Assembly (NCBI RefSeq): GCF_011762095.1
Contig: NZ_JAASQO010000002.1
Coordinates: 62,001-126,000, forward strand
Source: Parvibaculum indicum
Lineage (GTDB): Bacteria > Pseudomonadota > Alphaproteobacteria > Parvibaculales > Parvibaculaceae
Direction of reading: 5' to 3'
DNA length: 64,000 bases
The stretch's first letter is position 1; every line of letters starts with the position of its first letter. Positions 42,489 to 64,000 of the stretch are shown here, piece after piece. A program made the translations under genes and the position numbers. The notes beneath the pieces are model-generated. The model worked only from the letters and a program-made list of their open reading frames with translations, did not search any database and had not been told where the DNA came from.

Positions 42489-42838
42489 CCTGCCGATCCT
42501 TCGGCGCGCTGTTTGCGCTCCGCATAGGCGGCTTTGGCCGACATGATGCGATAGGGCACATCAGGAACGTCTTTGGCGGCGATACGGCAAAGCAACTCGT
42601 CATCCGTTTCGTCGCGATATTGAGCCGGCGAAACGATTTCGGCGCGCTTGCGCTTTTCCTTCTTCATGACCGGCTCGCCATTCTTCTTTTTTTTTCCAGT
42701 CGCGACCTCGACCTCGTAGTAGACGTCCCGGGAAACCTCCTCCTTCACTAGGATGCGGCCCCGGAATTTCTCTGCCGGCACGACGATGCTGATGCCGCCT
42801 TCGGCCTTCTCATTTTCGTAAACGATGACCTTATCCAT
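42485..42838 (-). CDS. small phage protein after the tail fibre (assembly or chaperone candidate)
   Basis: The product has 117 residues, starting MDKVIVYENEKAEGGISIVV and ending with the charged PYRIMSAKAAYAERKQRAEG. It is basic in the middle (KKKKNGEPVMKKEKRKR), encoded across a run of nine adenines. Its start overlaps the tail fibre stop and it ends four bases inside the convergent plus-strand gene. Genes at this position often help fold or attach the fibre. No named family is recognised. Confidence 0.65.
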   Translation of the reverse strand: MDKVIVYENEKAEGGISIVVPAEKFRGRILVKEEVSRDVYYEVEVATGKKKKNGEPVMKKEKRKRAEIVSPAQYRDETDDELLCRIAAKDVPDVPYRIMSAKAAYAERKQRAEGSAG

Positions 42839-43941
42839 CAGATGTCTCCATACACTGCCGCCATGACCAGGCTCTCATCCCAGAGCACCTGGTTCTGGTG
42901 GTACGTTTTGATAGTAAAGGCGCTGGTGCTGTCTATCTCCACGCCGATGGTGTGAAGAGGGGAATTCATGCCGGGGATTACCGCATAATCCGTGTTGGCC
43001 ATGGTGATGCCGAGGTTCACCGTGTGATTGCCGGTGCCGTTATCGGTCAGTGAGCTGACATTGTAGCTGTCGCGAATGGCCGCGGTCCCGGTGCCGTCAT
43101 AGTTCACCCAGGCCTTCGCGATGCCCTGATGGTACTTGAGCAGGTCGGCCGTCGGCACGACACCGGAGGCTTCCGAGGTCACTTCCGCGCCTGTCGAAAG
43201 CTCGACCGTCCCCAGCGCCGCCGTGGTCGCCGCGGCTGTCTTACTATCCACAAACTGCTTCGTCGCGATGCCCAGCGCCTCCGTGGGATCGCCCTTAATC
43301 GTGATGAGGCCGGTGGTTGTATTCACCAAGAAAGGGGTGTCGATATACTCGCCGGCGCCGCTATAGCGCTCAATGACATAGTCTTGACCGGATGCGCGGC
43401 GTCCGGATTTCCACCTTTTGATACCGCCGATTCGGAAATTGATTAGGGAATCATTGCCCGCACCGCCATTGAGAATCAAAGCGTTCTCTGCGCCATAAAC
43501 CTCTATTTCTAGATTGTTAGACAGCTTGCCGCCCGCCTTCGGCAGGAACGGTCCACCCAGCTCGAACCCGGTGCCGCCCGCATTGACCACCACGCCCTTC
43601 CCGGCATCGCCGCCCTGAAGCGCGGCGGCCAGGAACACCATCAGCTTCGCCGACATGGTGCAGAAAATGTCCTTCGCCTCGCTGTCCGGCCAGTTGACCG
43701 GGTCGCCGCCATTGGTGGACGACAAGATGAGATCGCGCGTGATGGCGTTCCCCGCCCCGACCGTGCCGAGGAATATCTCCGCATCGGAGCCGGAGCGGAC
43801 GCAGAAGCAGGACTGGTTGCTCTCGCCGATCGCCGCCGCGATGGTCAGATATCCCGCGGCGGCGGTGCCGGAACTCGTATAATTCCCGGTGCCGGACGTC
43901 GTCGTCGTTTCCTTCGCATTGTCGGCAATAACGAAAGCCAT
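42838..43941 (-). CDS. tail fibre protein
   Basis: This 367-residue Gly/Thr/Ala-rich protein has a Ser/Thr-rich N-terminus, a coiled middle (LGIATKQFVDSKTAAATTAALG), and a C-terminal domain starting AKAWVNYDGTGTAAIRDSYNVSSLTDNGTGNHTVNLG, which is common to fibre tips of tailed phages. It is the presumed receptor-contact protein of the tail module. It does not contain a copy of the DGR variable repeat. TAATG overlap joins it to the preceding gene. Confidence 0.72.
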   Translation of the reverse strand: MAFVIADNAKETTTTSGTGNYTSSGTAAAGYLTIAAAIGESNQSCFCVRSGSDAEIFLGTVGAGNAITRDLILSSTNGGDPVNWPDSEAKDIFCTMSAKLMVFLAAALQGGDAGKGVVVNAGGTGFELGGPFLPKAGGKLSNNLEIEVYGAENALILNGGAGNDSLINFRIGGIKRWKSGRRASGQDYVIERYSGAGEYIDTPFLVNTTTGLITIKGDPTEALGIATKQFVDSKTAAATTAALGTVELSTGAEVTSEASGVVPTADLLKYHQGIAKAWVNYDGTGTAAIRDSYNVSSLTDNGTGNHTVNLGITMANTDYAVIPGMNSPLHTIGVEIDSTSAFTIKTYHQNQVLWDESLVMAAVYGDI

Positions 43942-44699
43942 TACAGGCGCCCCTCTATCACATAGGTTTTGGAATCGCGCAGGACATTGCGCGCCACGAT
44001 GTCGGTCGGGTCGCGTACGAGGCCGATGATCGTGTCGCGGCTCACATGCTCGCCCAGCGCATCGATGGAGATCAGAAGGTCGATTTCCGTTCCGTTGACC
44101 CGGTCCACTTCCTGGAGGATCAGCGATTCGTCCGCGTTCAGATTGTCGAAGCTGAGTTTCCAGCGGCGCCAGTTCGGCTTGCGGTCGATATAGATCTGGC
44201 CGCCAAGGGACTGCGACCGCCTGGAGAGCGAGGCATAGCCCTTCGCCCGGCCATAGCTGTCATTGATCTCGAAGAACATGCCGCCGGAGACGAAAATCCG
44301 CCCGGCCTGCGCATAGGAAAGCGCCTCGTCGGCCATGTCGATCCGCACATATTGTCCGGACACCGCTTCTTCGAGGATATGAACGAACTGCCCGCTCGCC
44401 GGATCGCACACGCCCGTCATCGCGCCGCTGTCATAGGCCGACGACGCGAAATCCGGATCGTCGCCGATCCGCACCCGCATTTGCGTCGTGGCAAGCCCGT
44501 TGAAGCCGCCCAGCGCGACGACATTGATATCGGCCGCGCCCGCCAGATTGGCCTGTGCCCAGCACGGCACGGCTTTCGAGCGCCATTTCTTCGCAAACCA
44601 TTCCTGTTGCAGATAGGTCGCGGGCAGCGTCGGCCAGGCCGTGTCGGTGGAGATATAGCCCGCATCGGCCAGGTTCTCGCTGGCAAGAAACGTCTTCAT
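43941..44699 (-). CDS. tail tip protein
   Basis: The protein has 252 residues, starting MKTFLASENLADAGYISTD. It contains SGQYVRIDMADEALSYAQAGRIFVSGGM, a beta-sandwich pattern like the galactose-binding or distal-tail domains, and a later LDNLNADESLIL-like stretch. It lies between the larger tail protein and the fibre, with stop-start overlaps on both sides. Precise tail position is not clear from sequence; distal tail or hub is likely. Confidence 0.6.
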   Translation of the reverse strand: MKTFLASENLADAGYISTDTAWPTLPATYLQQEWFAKKWRSKAVPCWAQANLAGAADINVVALGGFNGLATTQMRVRIGDDPDFASSAYDSGAMTGVCDPASGQFVHILEEAVSGQYVRIDMADEALSYAQAGRIFVSGGMFFEINDSYGRAKGYASLSRRSQSLGGQIYIDRKPNWRRWKLSFDNLNADESLILQEVDRVNGTEIDLLISIDALGEHVSRDTIIGLVRDPTDIVARNVLRDSKTYVIEGRL

Positions 44700-46189
44700 A
44701 CGAACACCGTCATCTTCACCCTGTTCTGGGCCGCATTGTCGGCCACGCTCAACACCTTGGCCGCCCGGCCCGCCGCGAGGTCGAAACGCGGATATCGCAG
44801 CTTCACCACGGCGCCGGGGTCCAGCGTGTAGGGCTGGGCATCCGCCACGACCTCATAGAAGGCCCGCGGCTCGCGCGTGAGGACCAGCAGGCGCGCCGCT
44901 TCGGCGTCGGCATCGGATTTCAGCGCGAAGAACGACCGCACCGCCGGGGCGTCCTGCGCGAGCAGGAATGCCGTCCGCGTCGTATTGTCCTGCGCGGAGC
45001 CATAGCGATATTCCTCGGCCAGATAGGCCAGCCGGGCCGTGGAAACGCCCGATGCGAGCCCGCCCTTCTGCACGGTCCAGTTTCGCCGGTAGCCCACCCG
45101 CCGCCGCCAGCAGGGCGGGTAGAAACCGGAGGGCGGCTGAAGCCGTTCGATGCTCTTGATTTCCAGTTCGGTGAAAGTCGCCGCCGGATCGCCTTCCGGC
45201 TCGCCGAATATGCCGACCTGCAGAATGCCGTCGCGCGTGAAACAGCGGAAACCGCCGATACCGCCCAGCAATTCGCCGATCGCCGTCGATATGTTGATGT
45301 CTTCCGTCGCGCAATAGCCCACCGCCGCGGGCTGGATTGCATTCATGGCGGCAAAAGCGGCAAGGTCCAGCCGGTCATCGCTCCAGCCGCCATTCTCCGT
45401 CGCCATCGCCTTGACGATATCCGCCGTCGTCTCGATATAGACGCCGCCGATTTTCGCGCCATGCACATCCGCGGTGACCTGACCGTCCACCGCCACGGAA
45501 GGCGTAATCGTGCCCGCGTCGAGATCCGCGTCGTAATATTCCGGCTCCAGCGGCACCCCGTCCACATAGACCGCGTCGACGGACTGCATCGGGCCGTCAT
45601 GGACCTGCCAGACATTGTTCAGCGGATCGACAAGCGTCGCAGGCACGTTCTCGCACACGCCCCAGCATTGCTGGATCGGCTTTCCGGCCAGGTCGTCCGT
45701 GCCGTCATTGCCGCCCGTGCCGCCGTAATAGGCCCGCGCGAGCGGCACTTCGAGCTGGTAACCCCAGTCGCGCAGCGTGATGAGAACGCCCGCCTCGGTA
45801 AGCTGCCATCCCTCCGCCGCGCCGTCGAAAACGGTGCCGAACTCCGGATAGGAAAAGCTGTCCGGATCGCCCAGCCGGATCGTGACGCGCCGCCCGTCTA
45901 TGGCGTGGTTGGACACGATGCCGTCGTAGTAACCGTCGCTGTTCTCGAGTTCCATCGATCCGAAGCCGATGGAGGCCGCGCCGCCGATGCCCGCATTGTC
46001 GATGATCGACCGCTCCATCGCGGGCGGCGATTTCAGCCGTCCCTCGAAATGGATATTGGCCGGCATGTCGTCCGGCTCGGTCGTGAAGCCCTCCGTCGCC
46101 GCGTAGACGACCTGTTCCTCATAGACCACGGCCAGCTCGACGGGAAACCCGCCTATCGGCGCGATGCCCAGGGCATGAAATCCCAACAT
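44696..46189 (-). CDS. large tail protein (hub/baseplate-like)
   Basis: The product has 497 residues of mostly beta character. Segments include AMERSIIDNAGIGGAASIGFGSMELENSDGYYDGI, GRRVTIRLGDPDSFSYPEFGTVFDG and VFTEL-like TFTELEIKSIERLQPPSGFYP. These suggest a phage tail hub built from repeated beta domains, the role of lambda gpL/gpJ-type proteins. A short ATGA overlap with the next tail gene shows operon coupling. Family assignment is by position and pattern, not by a named domain. Confidence 0.6.
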   Translation of the reverse strand: MLGFHALGIAPIGGFPVELAVVYEEQVVYAATEGFTTEPDDMPANIHFEGRLKSPPAMERSIIDNAGIGGAASIGFGSMELENSDGYYDGIVSNHAIDGRRVTIRLGDPDSFSYPEFGTVFDGAAEGWQLTEAGVLITLRDWGYQLEVPLARAYYGGTGGNDGTDDLAGKPIQQCWGVCENVPATLVDPLNNVWQVHDGPMQSVDAVYVDGVPLEPEYYDADLDAGTITPSVAVDGQVTADVHGAKIGGVYIETTADIVKAMATENGGWSDDRLDLAAFAAMNAIQPAAVGYCATEDINISTAIGELLGGIGGFRCFTRDGILQVGIFGEPEGDPAATFTELEIKSIERLQPPSGFYPPCWRRRVGYRRNWTVQKGGLASGVSTARLAYLAEEYRYGSAQDNTTRTAFLLAQDAPAVRSFFALKSDADAEAARLLVLTREPRAFYEVVADAQPYTLDPGAVVKLRYPRFDLAAGRAAKVLSVADNAAQNRVKMTVFV

Positions 46190-58986: not shown

Positions 58987-60539
58987 AAATCCTGTCCTTG
59001 CTGTTGGGGCTTCGGCGCGGCGGCCTTCTTCTCGATACCGAGATCGCGTTCGCGGGCCTGATCCTGCGCGCGCTGTTCGTCGATAACCTCGACATCGTCG
59101 CCCCGCTCCGCGACGGTTGCCTGACGCGAGGTGAGGCCGCCGTCGATTTCCGCGACCTGTGCCTCCACATCCTGCTTCGGATTGAGATATTCCCAGCGGT
59201 GGGGCCGCCATTCGGTCCGGTAGAGATCTGCCTGGGTGACGCTCTTCGGCACCTTGATTGCGCCGGAAGCGACGGCATAGGCGATGAACCGGTTCTTGAT
59301 CGGCTCGTTGAACTGGTGACACACCAGATTCCACTGCCACTGCTGAACCTGCCGCTTCCAGGTGTTGAACTGGGCGCGGAATGTCCGGTCGTTGGAATTC
59401 TTCCAGTCGCCGGTCAGCTCCTCATAGAGAACACCCAGAGAAGCCGCCGCGTCCTGATAGTTGCGGGTCAGGAAGGGCTCGAAGTTTCCGGTGCCGTCCT
59501 GCGGATTGTTGAACTCGACGCTCTCGTCAAGATCGAGATACTGCATCGTGCCGGGCTCCATCGCGACGGCCGGCATTTCTCCGCCGATACCGTCGAGCAC
59601 TTCGCCCCACTGCTTCGCGAGCTCTTCCTCGTCCATATTCTCGGTGGACGCGCGCTTCACGAAGCCGACGATATTCGCAACCATCTGTTTGCGGAGAAGT
59701 TCCGCATCCTTGTAGTTGCCGAGCTGATGAAGGGTCGTGATCGCCCGTGCGATCCACGGTATTCCGCGCAATTGCCCGATGCGCGTCACGTTGTAGAGAT
59801 GGACCATCTCGCTCGCGAGAACGCGGCGCGGCGTCATGTCCATATTCGACGCATTAATCAGATAGTCGGCGGGGTGTTGGCGATACACCCAATAGGCGAT
59901 CCGCCTGCCGAAGCCGTTGCGCTCGATCCCCTGTGCGACCGGATTGCCGCCGAACGGAATATCATAGGTCAGCGGCACCTGCTCCGTCGGCAGAAGCTGC
60001 ACCTGAAACGGCACGGGAAGGCCGTCGGAAAGCCGCCTCGACCGCAGCCGGGCGAAACACTCGCCGCCTTCTGCCATCTCCGAAACCGCCAGGGCCTGCT
60101 GGCCGTAAAAGTCGAGGCCGCCATCCGCATCGGAGACTTTCGTCCACTCCTCGAACAGCCGCGTCAGCGCCTCGCGCGTCGCCTTGTGCTTGCACAGGAA
60201 GCGCGGCTTGATACCCGTTCCCACCGTATGGATGGGAATGAGATCGAGCGCGCGACCCGCTGTCGGGTTGTTGCGCTTCAGGTCGCGCGAGCGGCGCACA
60301 AGTTCGGGCGCGCTCGTCTGCACGACGCTGTTCGGTCCGCTGCCGGAAGGCCGGAAGCCCGCCATGCGCCGACCGACCGATGCGCCATTGTAGGGGCCGC
60401 TCGGAGAAGGCGTCACGCCGAAAGCCTCCATCGTCTCCCGCAGCTCGGAGAGCGAGACATATTGTTGACTGCCGGACCTGATCGGGACGAGCAGAGACGG
60501 CCGCCCCTGGGAGGCGCTGGACATCCTGCGTTTCGACAT
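58983..60539 (-). CDS. portal protein, lambda gpB family
   Basis: This 518-residue portal has SAPELVRRSRDLKRNNPTAGRALDLIPIHTVG, the wing and stem region, FNTWKRQVQQWQWNLVCHQFNEP, and a basic C-terminal part. It lies after gpW and before the protease, as in lambda. Twelve copies form the DNA gate at the head vertex. The start at ATG 60539 is 3 bp after the gpW-like stop. Confidence 0.9.
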   Translation of the reverse strand: MSKRRMSSASQGRPSLLVPIRSGSQQYVSLSELRETMEAFGVTPSPSGPYNGASVGRRMAGFRPSGSGPNSVVQTSAPELVRRSRDLKRNNPTAGRALDLIPIHTVGTGIKPRFLCKHKATREALTRLFEEWTKVSDADGGLDFYGQQALAVSEMAEGGECFARLRSRRLSDGLPVPFQVQLLPTEQVPLTYDIPFGGNPVAQGIERNGFGRRIAYWVYRQHPADYLINASNMDMTPRRVLASEMVHLYNVTRIGQLRGIPWIARAITTLHQLGNYKDAELLRKQMVANIVGFVKRASTENMDEEELAKQWGEVLDGIGGEMPAVAMEPGTMQYLDLDESVEFNNPQDGTGNFEPFLTRNYQDAAASLGVLYEELTGDWKNSNDRTFRAQFNTWKRQVQQWQWNLVCHQFNEPIKNRFIAYAVASGAIKVPKSVTQADLYRTEWRPHRWEYLNPKQDVEAQVAEIDGGLTSRQATVAERGDDVEVIDEQRAQDQARERDLGIEKKAAAPKPQQQGQDL

Positions 60540-60542
60540 GCG

Positions 60543-60743
60543 TCAATATCCCGAGCGGGGCGCGCCGCGGAAGGCGCGGACAGGCTTTTTCGTGGCGAGG
60601 CTCGCCTTCATTTCGGAAAGCAGCGAGCGCATTTCCTTGAGCGAGTGATATTCGGTCTCGGACCCGTCGGAATAGCGCACACGCTTGACGCCCGCGCCGA
60701 TGGCCGTTTGCAGCGCGTCGATATCGTCTTGGGTCCAGGCCAT
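60543..60743 (-). CDS. head-tail joining protein, gpW-like
   Basis: The protein has 66 residues: MAWTQDDIDALQTAIGAGVKRVRYSDGSETEYHSLKEMRSLLSEMKASL, with the alpha-beta-beta-alpha pattern of gpW (W of lambda is 68 residues). It completes the portal vertex so that the stopper can bind. A TTG before the ATG continues the frame and was not used. Its place directly upstream of the portal gene matches lambda. Confidence 0.85.
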   Translation of the reverse strand: MAWTQDDIDALQTAIGAGVKRVRYSDGSETEYHSLKEMRSLLSEMKASLATKKPVRAFRGAPRSGY

Positions 60744-60778
60744 CAAATCTCTCTGGCTAGAGGTATTGTTAAAATACC

Positions 60779-61054
60779 CTAGTTTTCACCGTCCGCTGTC
60801 GCTGCCGCATACTCCTGCTCGAACTCTGCCCTCGTTGAGAAACCCAGATGCTGGATCGTGTCGAGCGTCTCCACGCTCGTCCAGACTGGCTCCACCGCCG
60901 CGCCGGAATAGCCGGGCTCATTGTAGCCATCCGGATAAACAGCGGTGTCCATCGTGGTTTCGAGGGTACCTGCAATTGCCTGCATCGCATCGAGATACTC
61001 CGGCGTGCCTTTCAGGGCGTCGAGATCGGCGCGGGTATTGATGATCTTGGTCAT
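60779..61054 (-). CDS. 91-residue protein coupled to the DGR reverse transcriptase
   Basis: The product has 91 residues, MTKIINTRADLDALKGTPEYLDAMQAIAG, then YPDGYNEPGYSGAAVEPVWTSVETLDTIQHLGFSTRAEFEQEY. GGAGAAATC precedes the ATG, which overlaps the reverse transcriptase stop as ATGA. The start looks like the opening of proteins that accompany phage tail fibres in alphaproteobacterial phages. A helper or partner of the variable target protein is possible. I do not know the function. Confidence 0.6.
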   Translation of the reverse strand: MTKIINTRADLDALKGTPEYLDAMQAIAGTLETTMDTAVYPDGYNEPGYSGAAVEPVWTSVETLDTIQHLGFSTRAEFEQEYAAATADGEN

Positions 61055-62025
61055 GATTTCTCCAGGGAAAAAGATTGCAGCAGATGGTGGCTGTCAGCGT
61101 GTTCCGCGTGGCCGCGCCACGACCCGGCAAAGGCCTGCAGCGCGACGGGATCGCCTCCGGCGCGAAGGCGCCGCAGCTTACGGCGGGCCCCCTTCACGCT
61201 TCGGCGCCGCAGCAGCTTGTGAGTGGGCCATATCCGGTAGCCGAGAAAGTTTATCCCGCGGCTGATCGGAGCGGTGGACCAGTGGCTAAACCTCAAATGC
61301 AGCTCGTCGGCGGCGAACGTCTCCAGCGCGTCCTTCACCGCCCGCAATTCTCGGATATCGTCTCCCAGGACCACGATGTCATCCATGTAGCGATACCACA
61401 GGCGGCGGCCGAGAACCTCGTGCAGGAAGCGGTCGGCGGCGCTGCCATAGACATTCGCAAAGAGCTGGCTTGTGAGCGCCCCTATAGGCAGCCCGCAGCC
61501 TTCTCGCGGAGTAAACCGCTCAATCAGATCGAGGGTGCCTGCGCAGCTGATTTTGCGGCGGATCATCCGGTGCAGGGTGGGCCTGTCGATGCTGGCGAAA
61601 TATCGGGAAAAATCGGTCTTGAGAAAGTGCGTGGCGCCGCTCCGGCGAAGATCGGCCTGCAACATCTTTACACCCGCATGAGATCCCATGCCGGCGCGAC
61701 AGGCGAAGGAGCGAGGCAGGAACGTCGCCTCGAATATCGGCCCGATGACGTTAACAAGTGCGTGGTGCGCCACCCTGTCCCGGAACGATAGCGCCTCGAT
61801 ATTGCGCGGCTTCGGCTCAAACACCATGAAGTGCCTCACAGGGTCAGGCTGGAACCGTCCTGACAAAATGTCCTCGCGCAGCCTCGCGAGGTTTGCTTCT
61901 GCATGCTCCTTGAATTCATGGTAGCCATAGGTGCCGCGCCGCCCGAGGGATGTCCTTGCATAGGCGCGGCGAATATTGCGGTCCTCCAGGATGAGGCTGA
62001 TCAGATTACGGTATTTCTTCGCCAT
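61051..62025 (-). CDS. DGR reverse transcriptase
   Basis: The protein has 324 residues. The palm motifs are complete: first catalytic Asp138 (LKTDFSRYF), the DGR-type motif 4 IGALTSQ (181-187), and YMDD at 213-216 followed by IVVLGDD. Basic thumb residues fill the C-terminus (RRRSVKGARRKLRRLRAGG). There is no RNase H or endonuclease domain, as expected for DGRs. It copies the template RNA with adenine errors together with Avd. ATG 62025 was chosen with GAGG upstream; the frame is open through the template repeat to 62307 but those codons are not the enzyme. The next gene overlaps its stop. Confidence 0.94.
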   Translation of the reverse strand: MAKKYRNLISLILEDRNIRRAYARTSLGRRGTYGYHEFKEHAEANLARLREDILSGRFQPDPVRHFMVFEPKPRNIEALSFRDRVAHHALVNVIGPIFEATFLPRSFACRAGMGSHAGVKMLQADLRRSGATHFLKTDFSRYFASIDRPTLHRMIRRKISCAGTLDLIERFTPREGCGLPIGALTSQLFANVYGSAADRFLHEVLGRRLWYRYMDDIVVLGDDIRELRAVKDALETFAADELHLRFSHWSTAPISRGINFLGYRIWPTHKLLRRRSVKGARRKLRRLRAGGDPVALQAFAGSWRGHAEHADSHHLLQSFSLEKS

Positions 62026-62169
62026 GGTAATTGCCAGCCTCGGGTTTCGATGGGCTACTCCCCGTTCTGCCGGACCTCGCAATGTATTCGCCGAAGCAGG
62101 TTGAGTGGGCTGACCACCATTGGTGATCGGCCTGCGCGGCCGTGACCGACGCAGAGCAGAAATTCGATC

Positions 62170-62290
62170 GTCACAGCGGCCGCGCGACCCGACATTGTTG
62201 TTCGAGTTCCAGGGCTGGTTGTTCCAGTTCGACGCGCGCGAACCGCAGTTCGAGCCGTTGTTCCAGTTGCCCCCGAATAGTGACGCGGCA
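62170..62290 (-). repeat. DGR template repeat (TR) with downstream spacer
   Basis: This 121-bp sequence is the donor for mutagenic copying. It matches the variable repeat at 62728-62848 over its whole length with nine differences. In coding sense it has 11 Asn codons (10 AAC and one AAT), the composition typical of templates whose adenines are mutated. Its 3' end is a GC-rich stretch including GCGGCCGC. It starts 14 bp after the avd stop and is followed by a 144-nt spacer (62026-62169) before the reverse transcriptase start, close to the spacer length that BPP-1 needs for priming. It is expressed as RNA; translation is not needed. Confidence 0.93.
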
Positions 62291-62303
62291 CACTTCACCC
62301 CGC

Positions 62304-62717
62304 TCAACCCCTACTCTTCACAGTCTTTATCCACGCCCCGAGCATTCGGCCGATCTCGGCCAAATGGATCGATGCCACACGATGTTGGTGTGGCGTGATG
62401 AGACGGCGCGAGGGAGCGGCCATGAAGCGCAGCCAGAACCGCAGATACGCCAGATTGGCGTCTGCGGAATAAAGACGGGAAGCCTGCTTCGACTTTCCCG
62501 CAGCAATGAGAAGCTCGACCTGCCCGAACAGCGAAGTCAGTGCAGCATCGCGGGCGACACCGTGCTTTCGTGGAACATTTTGCAGGATCGGGTAGAGGTA
62601 ATCGATTAAACGCTCCAGCTTTTCCACGATTGCCATCGCCTCGCTTGAGACAATGACGTCACGCTCTATGTTCGTTCGCGCCGCTGCCCCGGCGCTTTCG
62701 CGCCGTGGACTAGACAT
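62304..62717 (-). CDS. avd: Avd, accessory variability determinant of the DGR
   Basis: The product has 137 residues. The core VEKLERLIDYLYPILQNVPRKHGVARD..LFGQVELLIAAGKSKQASRLYSADANLAYLRFWLRF matches Avd of Bordetella phage BPP-1 closely in pattern (four-helix bundle, pentamer that binds the reverse transcriptase and template RNA). The ATG at 62717 overlaps the target stop (ATGTCTAG), so translation is coupled to the variable gene; there is no separate ribosome site. A start at the internal ATG of AMAIVEKLERL would give about 110 residues. The gene stops 14 bp before the template repeat. Confidence 0.92.
   Translation of the reverse strand: MSSPRRESAGAAARTNIERDVIVSSEAMAIVEKLERLIDYLYPILQNVPRKHGVARDAALTSLFGQVELLIAAGKSKQASRLYSADANLAYLRFWLRFMAAPSRRLITPHQHRVASIHLAEIGRMLGAWIKTVKSRG
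62690..62705 (-). promoter_or_regulatory. DGR target-site hairpin with GAAA loop
   Basis: In coding sense CGGCGC, the loop GAAA and GCGCCG form a perfect 6-bp stem 22 bp after the variable repeat. In BPP-1 a stem-loop with a GRNA tetraloop at this place is needed for efficient target recognition. The loop GAAA fits GRNA and the position fits. Confidence 0.8.
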
Positions 62718-63777
62718 TAAACAGGTGGTCACAGCGGCCGCGCGACCCGACAACGCTGTTCGAGTTCCAGGGCTGGTTGTTCCAGGTCGACGCGCGCGAA
62801 CCGCAGTCCGAGCCGTTGGCCCAGTAGCCCCCGAATCGTGACGCGGCAATTCCGGCCGTTGTCTGTGTGTAAAGCTTGCCTCGGCCCTCAGTGCTGTCCT
62901 TCCAGCTATACGCATTTATGTCATCTGCAAGAGCGGCGGCGTCGACCGGAGTCGCGCCGACTGTCAGCCTGCTGATGAGATCACGACCCCACACATACAT
63001 GCAGCCAGTCGCCTGAACAATCCCCCACTTTGAAGTGAACTTCTCGTCGGCATTCGACGAACCTGCGTTGCTGTTCCCAAGGCCTGTGGACACCGGATCA
63101 TTGCCCCGTCCGACTGACTCTGTGGTTCCGTGGGCGGCAGCCATGAACTCACCATAGTCGAGCAAATCCTTTCCGACCGAGTTCAGCAGCTCCCGCGCTT
63201 CGAACCATGTGAGCGATCCGTAGGCGGTCGAACCATTGCCACCGAACATGGCCGGCACTTTCGGTGGCGAGGAACCATCGGCAATCGTCACGCCGTTTCT
63301 GGATGAGCCGTTCACGTCCACATCTGTGCCTGTGAGGTAGATGTCGCACCAGAAACGATCCGCGACGAATGCCATGCCTCGCGGATCAGGACAGGCCGGA
63401 CGCCATTTCAAATCCCACAAGCTGTATGGGTTGATCTGGGGGGTCGTATCGCCACCAGCCTGGGCCGGCGCATTTCCGCCGGGTGCGTAGTGAAAGCCTC
63501 CGATCCGTGTTGATGTAATGTTTGTGTAGCCGGCCGGTGCGCTGAAATTGGCCGAAGCCTGCAACGTGCCGTCGGAGCAAGCGTAAATCGCATAGTCGGT
63601 TCCTGCTGTGAGCGCCGGAAGAACCACCGCCACGCCGGACACGAACTTCCGAAGCATGCCATCAACAGTCGCGCGGATATCTTGATTGAGCGATACCGCC
63701 TGCGCTGTGGCAGAAAAGCAGACTTTTAACGGATCGGTTTTTTGCAGGGCACTCAGCAGGCCGAGGGCGATATCCAT
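62710..63777 (-). CDS. DGR target protein, C-type-lectin-fold variable receptor-binding protein
   Basis: The protein has 355 residues. The N-terminal third is a beta-rich part with AVSLNQDIRATVDGMLRKF and FSAPAGYTNITSTRIGGFHYAPGG. The C-terminal half has the formylglycine/C-type-lectin fold pattern: NPYSLWDLKWRPACPDPRGMAFV, LTWFEARELLNSVG, DEKFTSKWGIVQATGCMYVWGRD, and the variable ligand face FGGYWANGSDCGSR to RGRCDH. It starts at ATG 63777 with GGAG 7 bases upstream, one base after the stop of the 48-residue gene. It is likely to be on the virion and to contact the host surface, as Mtd in BPP-1. Confidence 0.88.
   Translation of the reverse strand: MDIALGLLSALQKTDPLKVCFSATAQAVSLNQDIRATVDGMLRKFVSGVAVVLPALTAGTDYAIYACSDGTLQASANFSAPAGYTNITSTRIGGFHYAPGGNAPAQAGGDTTPQINPYSLWDLKWRPACPDPRGMAFVADRFWCDIYLTGTDVDVNGSSRNGVTIADGSSPPKVPAMFGGNGSTAYGSLTWFEARELLNSVGKDLLDYGEFMAAAHGTTESVGRGNDPVSTGLGNSNAGSSNADEKFTSKWGIVQATGCMYVWGRDLISRLTVGATPVDAAALADDINAYSWKDSTEGRGKLYTQTTAGIAASRFGGYWANGSDCGSRASTWNNQPWNSNSVVGSRGRCDHLFNV
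62728..62848 (-). repeat. DGR variable repeat (VR) at the 3' end of the target gene
   Basis: The 121 bp align without gaps to the template repeat. Eight of the nine differences fall at template adenines (coding strand); they change six of 11 Asn codons (to Tyr, Ala, Asp, Thr, Ser and Val), while the GC-rich 3' end (24 bp, the initiation-of-mutagenic-homology region) is identical. The remaining difference, a T to G near the 5' end, is not adenine-type. The repeat ends 16 bp before the stop codon. Confidence 0.94.
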
Positions 63778-63778
63778 A

Positions 63779-63925
63779 TCAAATCTCCATGTAGACGGGC
63801 TTTCCGTCGAGCGTTAGCCATGTGCCATCAATCGACACGCGCTCGACGAGGATGCCGTTGATGCGGCGGCGGAGAGAAAGGATATTTCTCAGATTTCCAC
63901 TACTTCTGAGCCCAAGCGACCGCAT
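63779..63925 (-). CDS. 48-residue phage protein upstream of the DGR target
   Basis: The frame from ATG 63925 to TGA 63781 encodes 48 residues, MRSLGLRSSGNLRNILSLRR, and ends DGKPVYMEI. GGGAGGGCTG precedes the ATG, which overlaps the upstream stop (TGATG). The end of the gene is one base before the target ATG. Its tight coupling on both sides suggests it is real. No family is recognised. Confidence 0.65.
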   Translation of the reverse strand: MRSLGLRSSGNLRNILSLRRRINGILVERVSIDGTWLTLDGKPVYMEI

Positions 63926-64000
63926 CAGCCCTCCCACCTCGCCGCGACGGTAACCTGCGTATCGCTCTCGTCGGTCCGCCTGATCTCGATCCGGTCGCAG
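63925..64000 (-). CDS. C-terminal end of a phage gene running in from the right edge
   Basis: The open frame from the right edge to the stop at 63927-63925 encodes CDRIEIRRTDESDTQVTV and then AARWEG. It is coupled to the 48-residue gene by a TGATG overlap. Too little is present to assign a function; it belongs to the same leftward phage operon. Confidence 0.6.
   Translation of the reverse strand, partial: CDRIEIRRTDESDTQVTVAARWEG

Follow-up and report, generated by a model that had tools for sequence, protein, structure and literature searches.

The last few kilobases of a 64,000-nucleotide stretch of the Parvibaculum indicum genome (contig NZ_JAASQO010000002.1; the window) carry a reverse transcriptase gene and a repeat pair within a prophage. 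This raises the question of whether the locus is a complete diversity-generating retroelement (DGR), which protein it diversifies, and how it came to lie among genes for DNA packaging. All genes and elements of the module are encoded on the minus strand.

A repeat finder applied to positions 60500-64000 reported a single long direct repeat, composed of 62170-62290 and 62728-62848 (121 nt, 93% identity). The template repeat (TR, 62170..62290) contains 26 adenines and, when read in the frame of the target, 11 AAY codons. The variable repeat (VR, 62728..62848) makes up the 3′-terminal region of the target gene (codons 311-350 of 355). Alignment of the two 121-bp repeats revealed nine mismatches and no gaps. 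Read on the minus strand, eight of the nine mismatches are located at TR adenines, with adenine accounting for 26 of the 121 bases (binomial p = 3e-5); the ninth is a T to G difference near the 5′ end. Six of the 11 AAY codons are changed in VR (N318Y, N320A, N324D, N331T, N341S, N342V), while the remaining five are the same in both repeats. An adenine change within the AAY codons of TR cannot give rise to a stop codon. In the rest of the genome no second VR or second target and no further TR/VR pair or DGR reverse transcriptase were found.

The target gene (62710..63777) encodes a Mtd-like receptor-binding protein of 355 amino acids, which matches the Pfam family mtd_2nd (E 9e-22) and the tail protein family phrog_11262 (E 1.6e-116). 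It aligns to Mtd (1yu4, E 3.4e-90) from residue 9 to its end, the first ~50 residues of Mtd being absent from the target. The DGR reverse transcriptase (RT, 61051..62025, 324 aa) contains the motifs YMDD and IGALTSQ and matches phrog_1423 (E 6e-109) as well as 8ub7, a reverse transcriptase solved in complex with Avd (E 2.1e-116, residues 1-316). The last bases of the target gene are shared with the coding frame of avd (62304..62720). The avd product was assigned to NF033474 (E 1.3e-33), PF22296 (E 1.6e-32) and 4dwl (E 4.4e-38), and it passed the curated Pfam cut-off and the NCBIfam equivalog cut-off (115.4 bits, cut-off 80). Exactly 144 nt separate the end of TR from the start of the RT gene. 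This spacer includes the DGR RNA (62033..62157), which was recognized by the Rfam model RF03022 Phage_DGR over its full length (1-127; 106.8 bits, cut-off 50); by free folding alone it is ordinary (z -0.43). Just after VR, within the 5′ part of avd, a predicted hairpin/cruciform element with a 6-bp stem and a GAAA loop is present (CGGCGC-GAAA-GCGCCG, 62691..62706, give or take a base or two). It begins 22 nt past the end of TR/VR identity. RT, avd and target gene showed neither stop codons nor frameshifts.

Thus, the parts that a preliminary description of this DNA had named for a BPP-1-type DGR (target with VR, hairpin, avd, TR, spacer and RT) were each recovered, including a gap-free TR/VR pair of 121 bp, an intact RT, a full-length avd, the 144-nt spacer and the GAAA loop. 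The profile comparison with known families that it had proposed for RT and Avd gave high-scoring matches for both proteins. A YxDD reverse transcriptase, mismatches at TR adenines, a C-type-lectin-type target with a 3′-terminal VR, Avd and an RNA following TR were all found, and the element is very probably a BPP-1-type DGR that diversifies the C-type-lectin tip of the Mtd-like receptor-binding protein. Against this reading we counted the five unchanged AAY codons, the missing N-terminal part of Mtd, the searches for a second strain with another VR and for a left attachment site, which found neither, and the hairpin, whose stem measures 6 instead of 8 bp and which is ~7 nt more distant than that of BPP-1. 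In the proposed mechanism, an RT-Avd complex would copy TR RNA along with the DGR RNA that follows it, making errors at adenines. The resulting cDNA would take the place of VR in the 3′-terminal region of the target gene, with the hairpin and the GC-rich end of VR as guides. The six changed AAY codons would then be the record of at least one past round, and the target would presumably act on the virion as a receptor-binding protein.

Activity was addressed by comparison with related loci. Among 91 loci with TR/VR pairs, 1,128 of 1,284 mismatches are located at TR adenines; this set takes in the prophage itself and two copies of BPP-1, and some VR-VR pairs from duplicated targets lower the adenine bias. 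Two pairs of loci are especially close. L018 and L019 share the same TR and differ at 3 of 400 positions in the upstream flank, while their VRs differ at 14 of 110 positions, 13 of them at TR adenines. L033 and L035 have one difference in TR, 1 of 400 in the flank and 19 of 110 in VR (18 at TR adenines). Because TRs and flanks are nearly identical and the VRs nevertheless differ at 14-19 positions, 13-18 of them TR adenines, the DGRs of these relatives are, judged from the alignments, active. In L014, L059, L062, L074, L075, L091 and L094 the two copies of the best repeat pair are separated by ~1 kb and show no adenine bias, which suggests two targets and two VRs per DGR.

For the prophage itself, the only other record, from IMG/VR, is identical over 16,972 bp and apparently stems from the same genome, so that no VR variant is available; a VR pattern in which the adenines were left open matched, among viral contigs, only this record. 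The expectation that sister elements carry the same TR and different VRs was borne out in relatives such as L018/L019, and not for the prophage. Likewise, the earlier statement that the system looks active holds insofar as no lesion is visible in the core parts, while for the prophage copy we infer activity. The DGR could be intact in sequence yet silent, the prophage being grounded or the hairpin too weak, and VR would then be a frozen relic. The missing VR variants would fit this, as would the hairpin, which is shorter and more distant than in BPP-1. In BPP-1 the hairpin is required for efficient target recognition, and longer spacers to it reduce efficiency (PMC3240598). Furthermore, a close relative (L113) has a dead module, with avd fused to the RT C-terminus and 30 RT residues left. 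Nevertheless, RT, avd and target are free of stops and frameshifts, the structural genes checked are open, an integrase is present, and relatives whose hairpin is equally short keep adenine-biased VRs; similar stems of 6 bp, 18-22 nt away, were found in L052, L058, L068, L076 and L080. We regard a silent element as rather unlikely.

The gene following RT (60779..61054, 91 aa) encodes a Bbp4-like protein, a predicted Mtd partner or tail-fibre chaperone. The literature searched contained no text on Bbp4 in connection with BPP-1. Immediately after RT is also where a Bbp4-family gene is located in 51 RT-seeded loci, and in the phage collection the family occurs in five BPP-1-type phages only, after brt. 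These positions would fit a fifth DGR component that aids homing instead of acting as an Mtd partner. The family is, however, absent from about half of the related DGRs, and a family-seeded search placed a Mtd-like gene upstream of Bbp4 in nearly all loci with enough upstream DNA. Indeed, in L114-L116, L121, L129, L138, L151, L170, L172 and L179 Mtd adjoins Bbp4 without avd or RT, and in loci without a DGR the two genes are separated by 2-19 nt (81 nt in L121). No RT was detected elsewhere in 11 records without a DGR or with a broken one (L113-L116, L121, L129, L138, L151, L170, L172, L178; several are fragments), except for the 30-residue scar of L113. In addition, the Bbp4 homologues of L015, L018 and L029 are fused to DUF4376, a domain of the tail-fibre chaperones of Alteromonas phages V22 and A5 (PMC7289586, PMC10579305). 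A homing component is thus very unlikely.

Bbp4 follows Mtd whether or not a DGR is present, and in some loci it is joined to DUF4376; the Bbp4-like protein therefore most likely serves Mtd as a chaperone or accessory rather than belonging to the mutagenesis machinery. In profile searches DUF4376 was not found in the prophage protein, which possesses the N-terminal domain only and is therefore not classed as a DUF4376-type chaperone. Searches of PDB and BFVD with its predicted fold (pLDDT 88.6) yielded no significant match, and thus the chaperone idea stands on gene order and fusions. In relatives the gene is positioned directly after the receptor-binding gene, whereas in the prophage the DGR intervenes. 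According to these gene orders, the DGR is best read as an optional insert between Mtd and the Bbp4-like gene. The locus comparison hence supplies a testable role for Bbp4 and suggests that DGRs are gained and lost between the gene for a receptor-binding protein and that for its partner.

The prophage contains genes for a tape measure protein, a minor tail protein, capsid E, an S49 protease, a lambda-type portal, a head-tail adaptor, both terminase subunits and a serine-type integrase. This agrees with the earlier assignment to a lambda-like prophage, and all structural genes checked are open. The IMG/VR record of the prophage covers 39859 to 91301 (coordinates extended past the window). The integrase gene shares its 3′ end with a tRNA-Met gene (extended coordinates 91258-91334; L099:7258-7334), a likely attachment site; no attachment-site repeat was found across the predicted prophage ends and no match at the left end. 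The preliminary interpretation was supported, but it had overlooked two points, the gene for the Bbp4-like partner and the displacement of the module into the packaging operon.

The DGR module is flanked by the gene for the large terminase subunit (64293-66506) on one side and that for the head-tail adaptor (60543-60746) on the other, and does not adjoin the tail genes. Upstream of the target lies a 48-aa ORF (63779..63922), shared only with L113, in which an 84-aa ORF immediately upstream of the target is 62% identical over 37 aa. It is preceded by a 122-aa ORF (63925..64000, continuing to 64293 past the window), which overlaps the terminase stop codon and would be the first gene of the inserted stretch. 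At 60755-60782, where the inserted module borders on the head-tail adaptor gene, the Bbp4-like gene is followed by an imperfect palindrome, CTAGGGTATTTTAACAATACCTCTAG. The one collinear relative, L217 (terminase 62%, portal 55% identical), has the same order TerS-TerL-gpW-portal-S49-decoration-capsid. Its TerL gene overlaps gpW with nothing in between, and its 42-kb record contains neither Mtd nor RT. As L217 joins TerL to gpW without a gap, the module, consisting of the upstream small ORFs, Mtd, avd-TR-RT and the Bbp4-like gene, was probably inserted as a unit between TerL and gpW/portal. Conversely, the position between terminase and gpW could be ancestral and L217 could have lost the module; Mtd modules among head genes also in L113 and L178 speak for this. 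The TerL-gpW overlap of L217 resembles an uninterrupted operon, though, most module genes have a lower G+C content (0.58-0.61 vs 0.63-0.65), and Mtd was found in none of 39 other genomes of the family, so that we consider an ancestral position unlikely and prefer insertion. In L068, relatives of the tail genes 43941-44699 and 44696-46189 (25-31% identity) directly precede a Mtd-DGR. Matches to the tail gene 42838-43941 near Mtd (L133, L170) concern a short fibre domain only and were not used as evidence.

The element itself was found in none of 26 other species of the genus searched, and no homologous DGR RT was detected in the genomes searched of the same family. The curated Avd cut-off was passed by five of 385 genomes of the class, P. 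indicum included; given this small number, BPP-1-type elements are sporadic in the class. A host gene in the window has its best matches in Methylocella (about 71%) and Azospirillum (about 68%), as would be expected of an alphaproteobacterium. We tentatively propose, with slightly less than even confidence, that Mtd and the Bbp4-like protein are a portable receptor-binding pair into which avd-TR-RT can be inserted and from which it can be lost. The whole module would pass from one phage to another, unrelated one and would function within the packaging operon, so that a siphophage-like prophage would have, in addition to its ordinary tail fibre (42838-43941), a second and hypervariable receptor-binding protein. 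The locus extends BPP-1-type receptor switching to a lambda-like alphaproteobacterial prophage.

Compared with known systems, the element is a complete BPP-1-type DGR of a known kind; what is unusual is its location within the packaging operon, together with the pairing of Mtd with Bbp4. L018 and L019 (IMG/VR contigs) are among the closest by RT (61%) and share the order Mtd-avd-TR-RT-Bbp4. Unlike in the prophage, their module follows tail and tail-fibre genes and their Bbp4-like protein carries DUF4376. The IMG/VR contig L113 has the closest target (69%), a Bbp4 of 65% identity, the same upstream small ORF and a module among head genes, but TR and nearly all of RT are deleted and its terminase and portal belong to different families. 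At L113:4549-6273, the closest relative of the module, an in-frame fusion connects avd with the RT C-terminus, leaving a 'locked' receptor-binding protein. Two records named Escherichia phage T7 (LR745708.1, LR745707.1) show a Mtd-like sequence (43%) at the position of tail-fibre gene 17 and are possibly engineered hybrids. The Bordetella phage BPP-1 has the order Mtd-VR, avd, TR, RT, Bbp4, the TR-RT spacing and a GAAA hairpin in common with the prophage, with identities of 56.6% for RT (Brt), 46% for the target and 45% for Bbp4; measured alike, its hairpin stem is 8 bp long and 15 nt away, compared to 6 bp and 22 nt in the prophage. In contrast to BPP-1, the prophage has lambda-type portal, gpW, tape-measure and capsid genes, its target is without the N-terminal ~50 residues of Mtd, and its module lies between terminase and portal.
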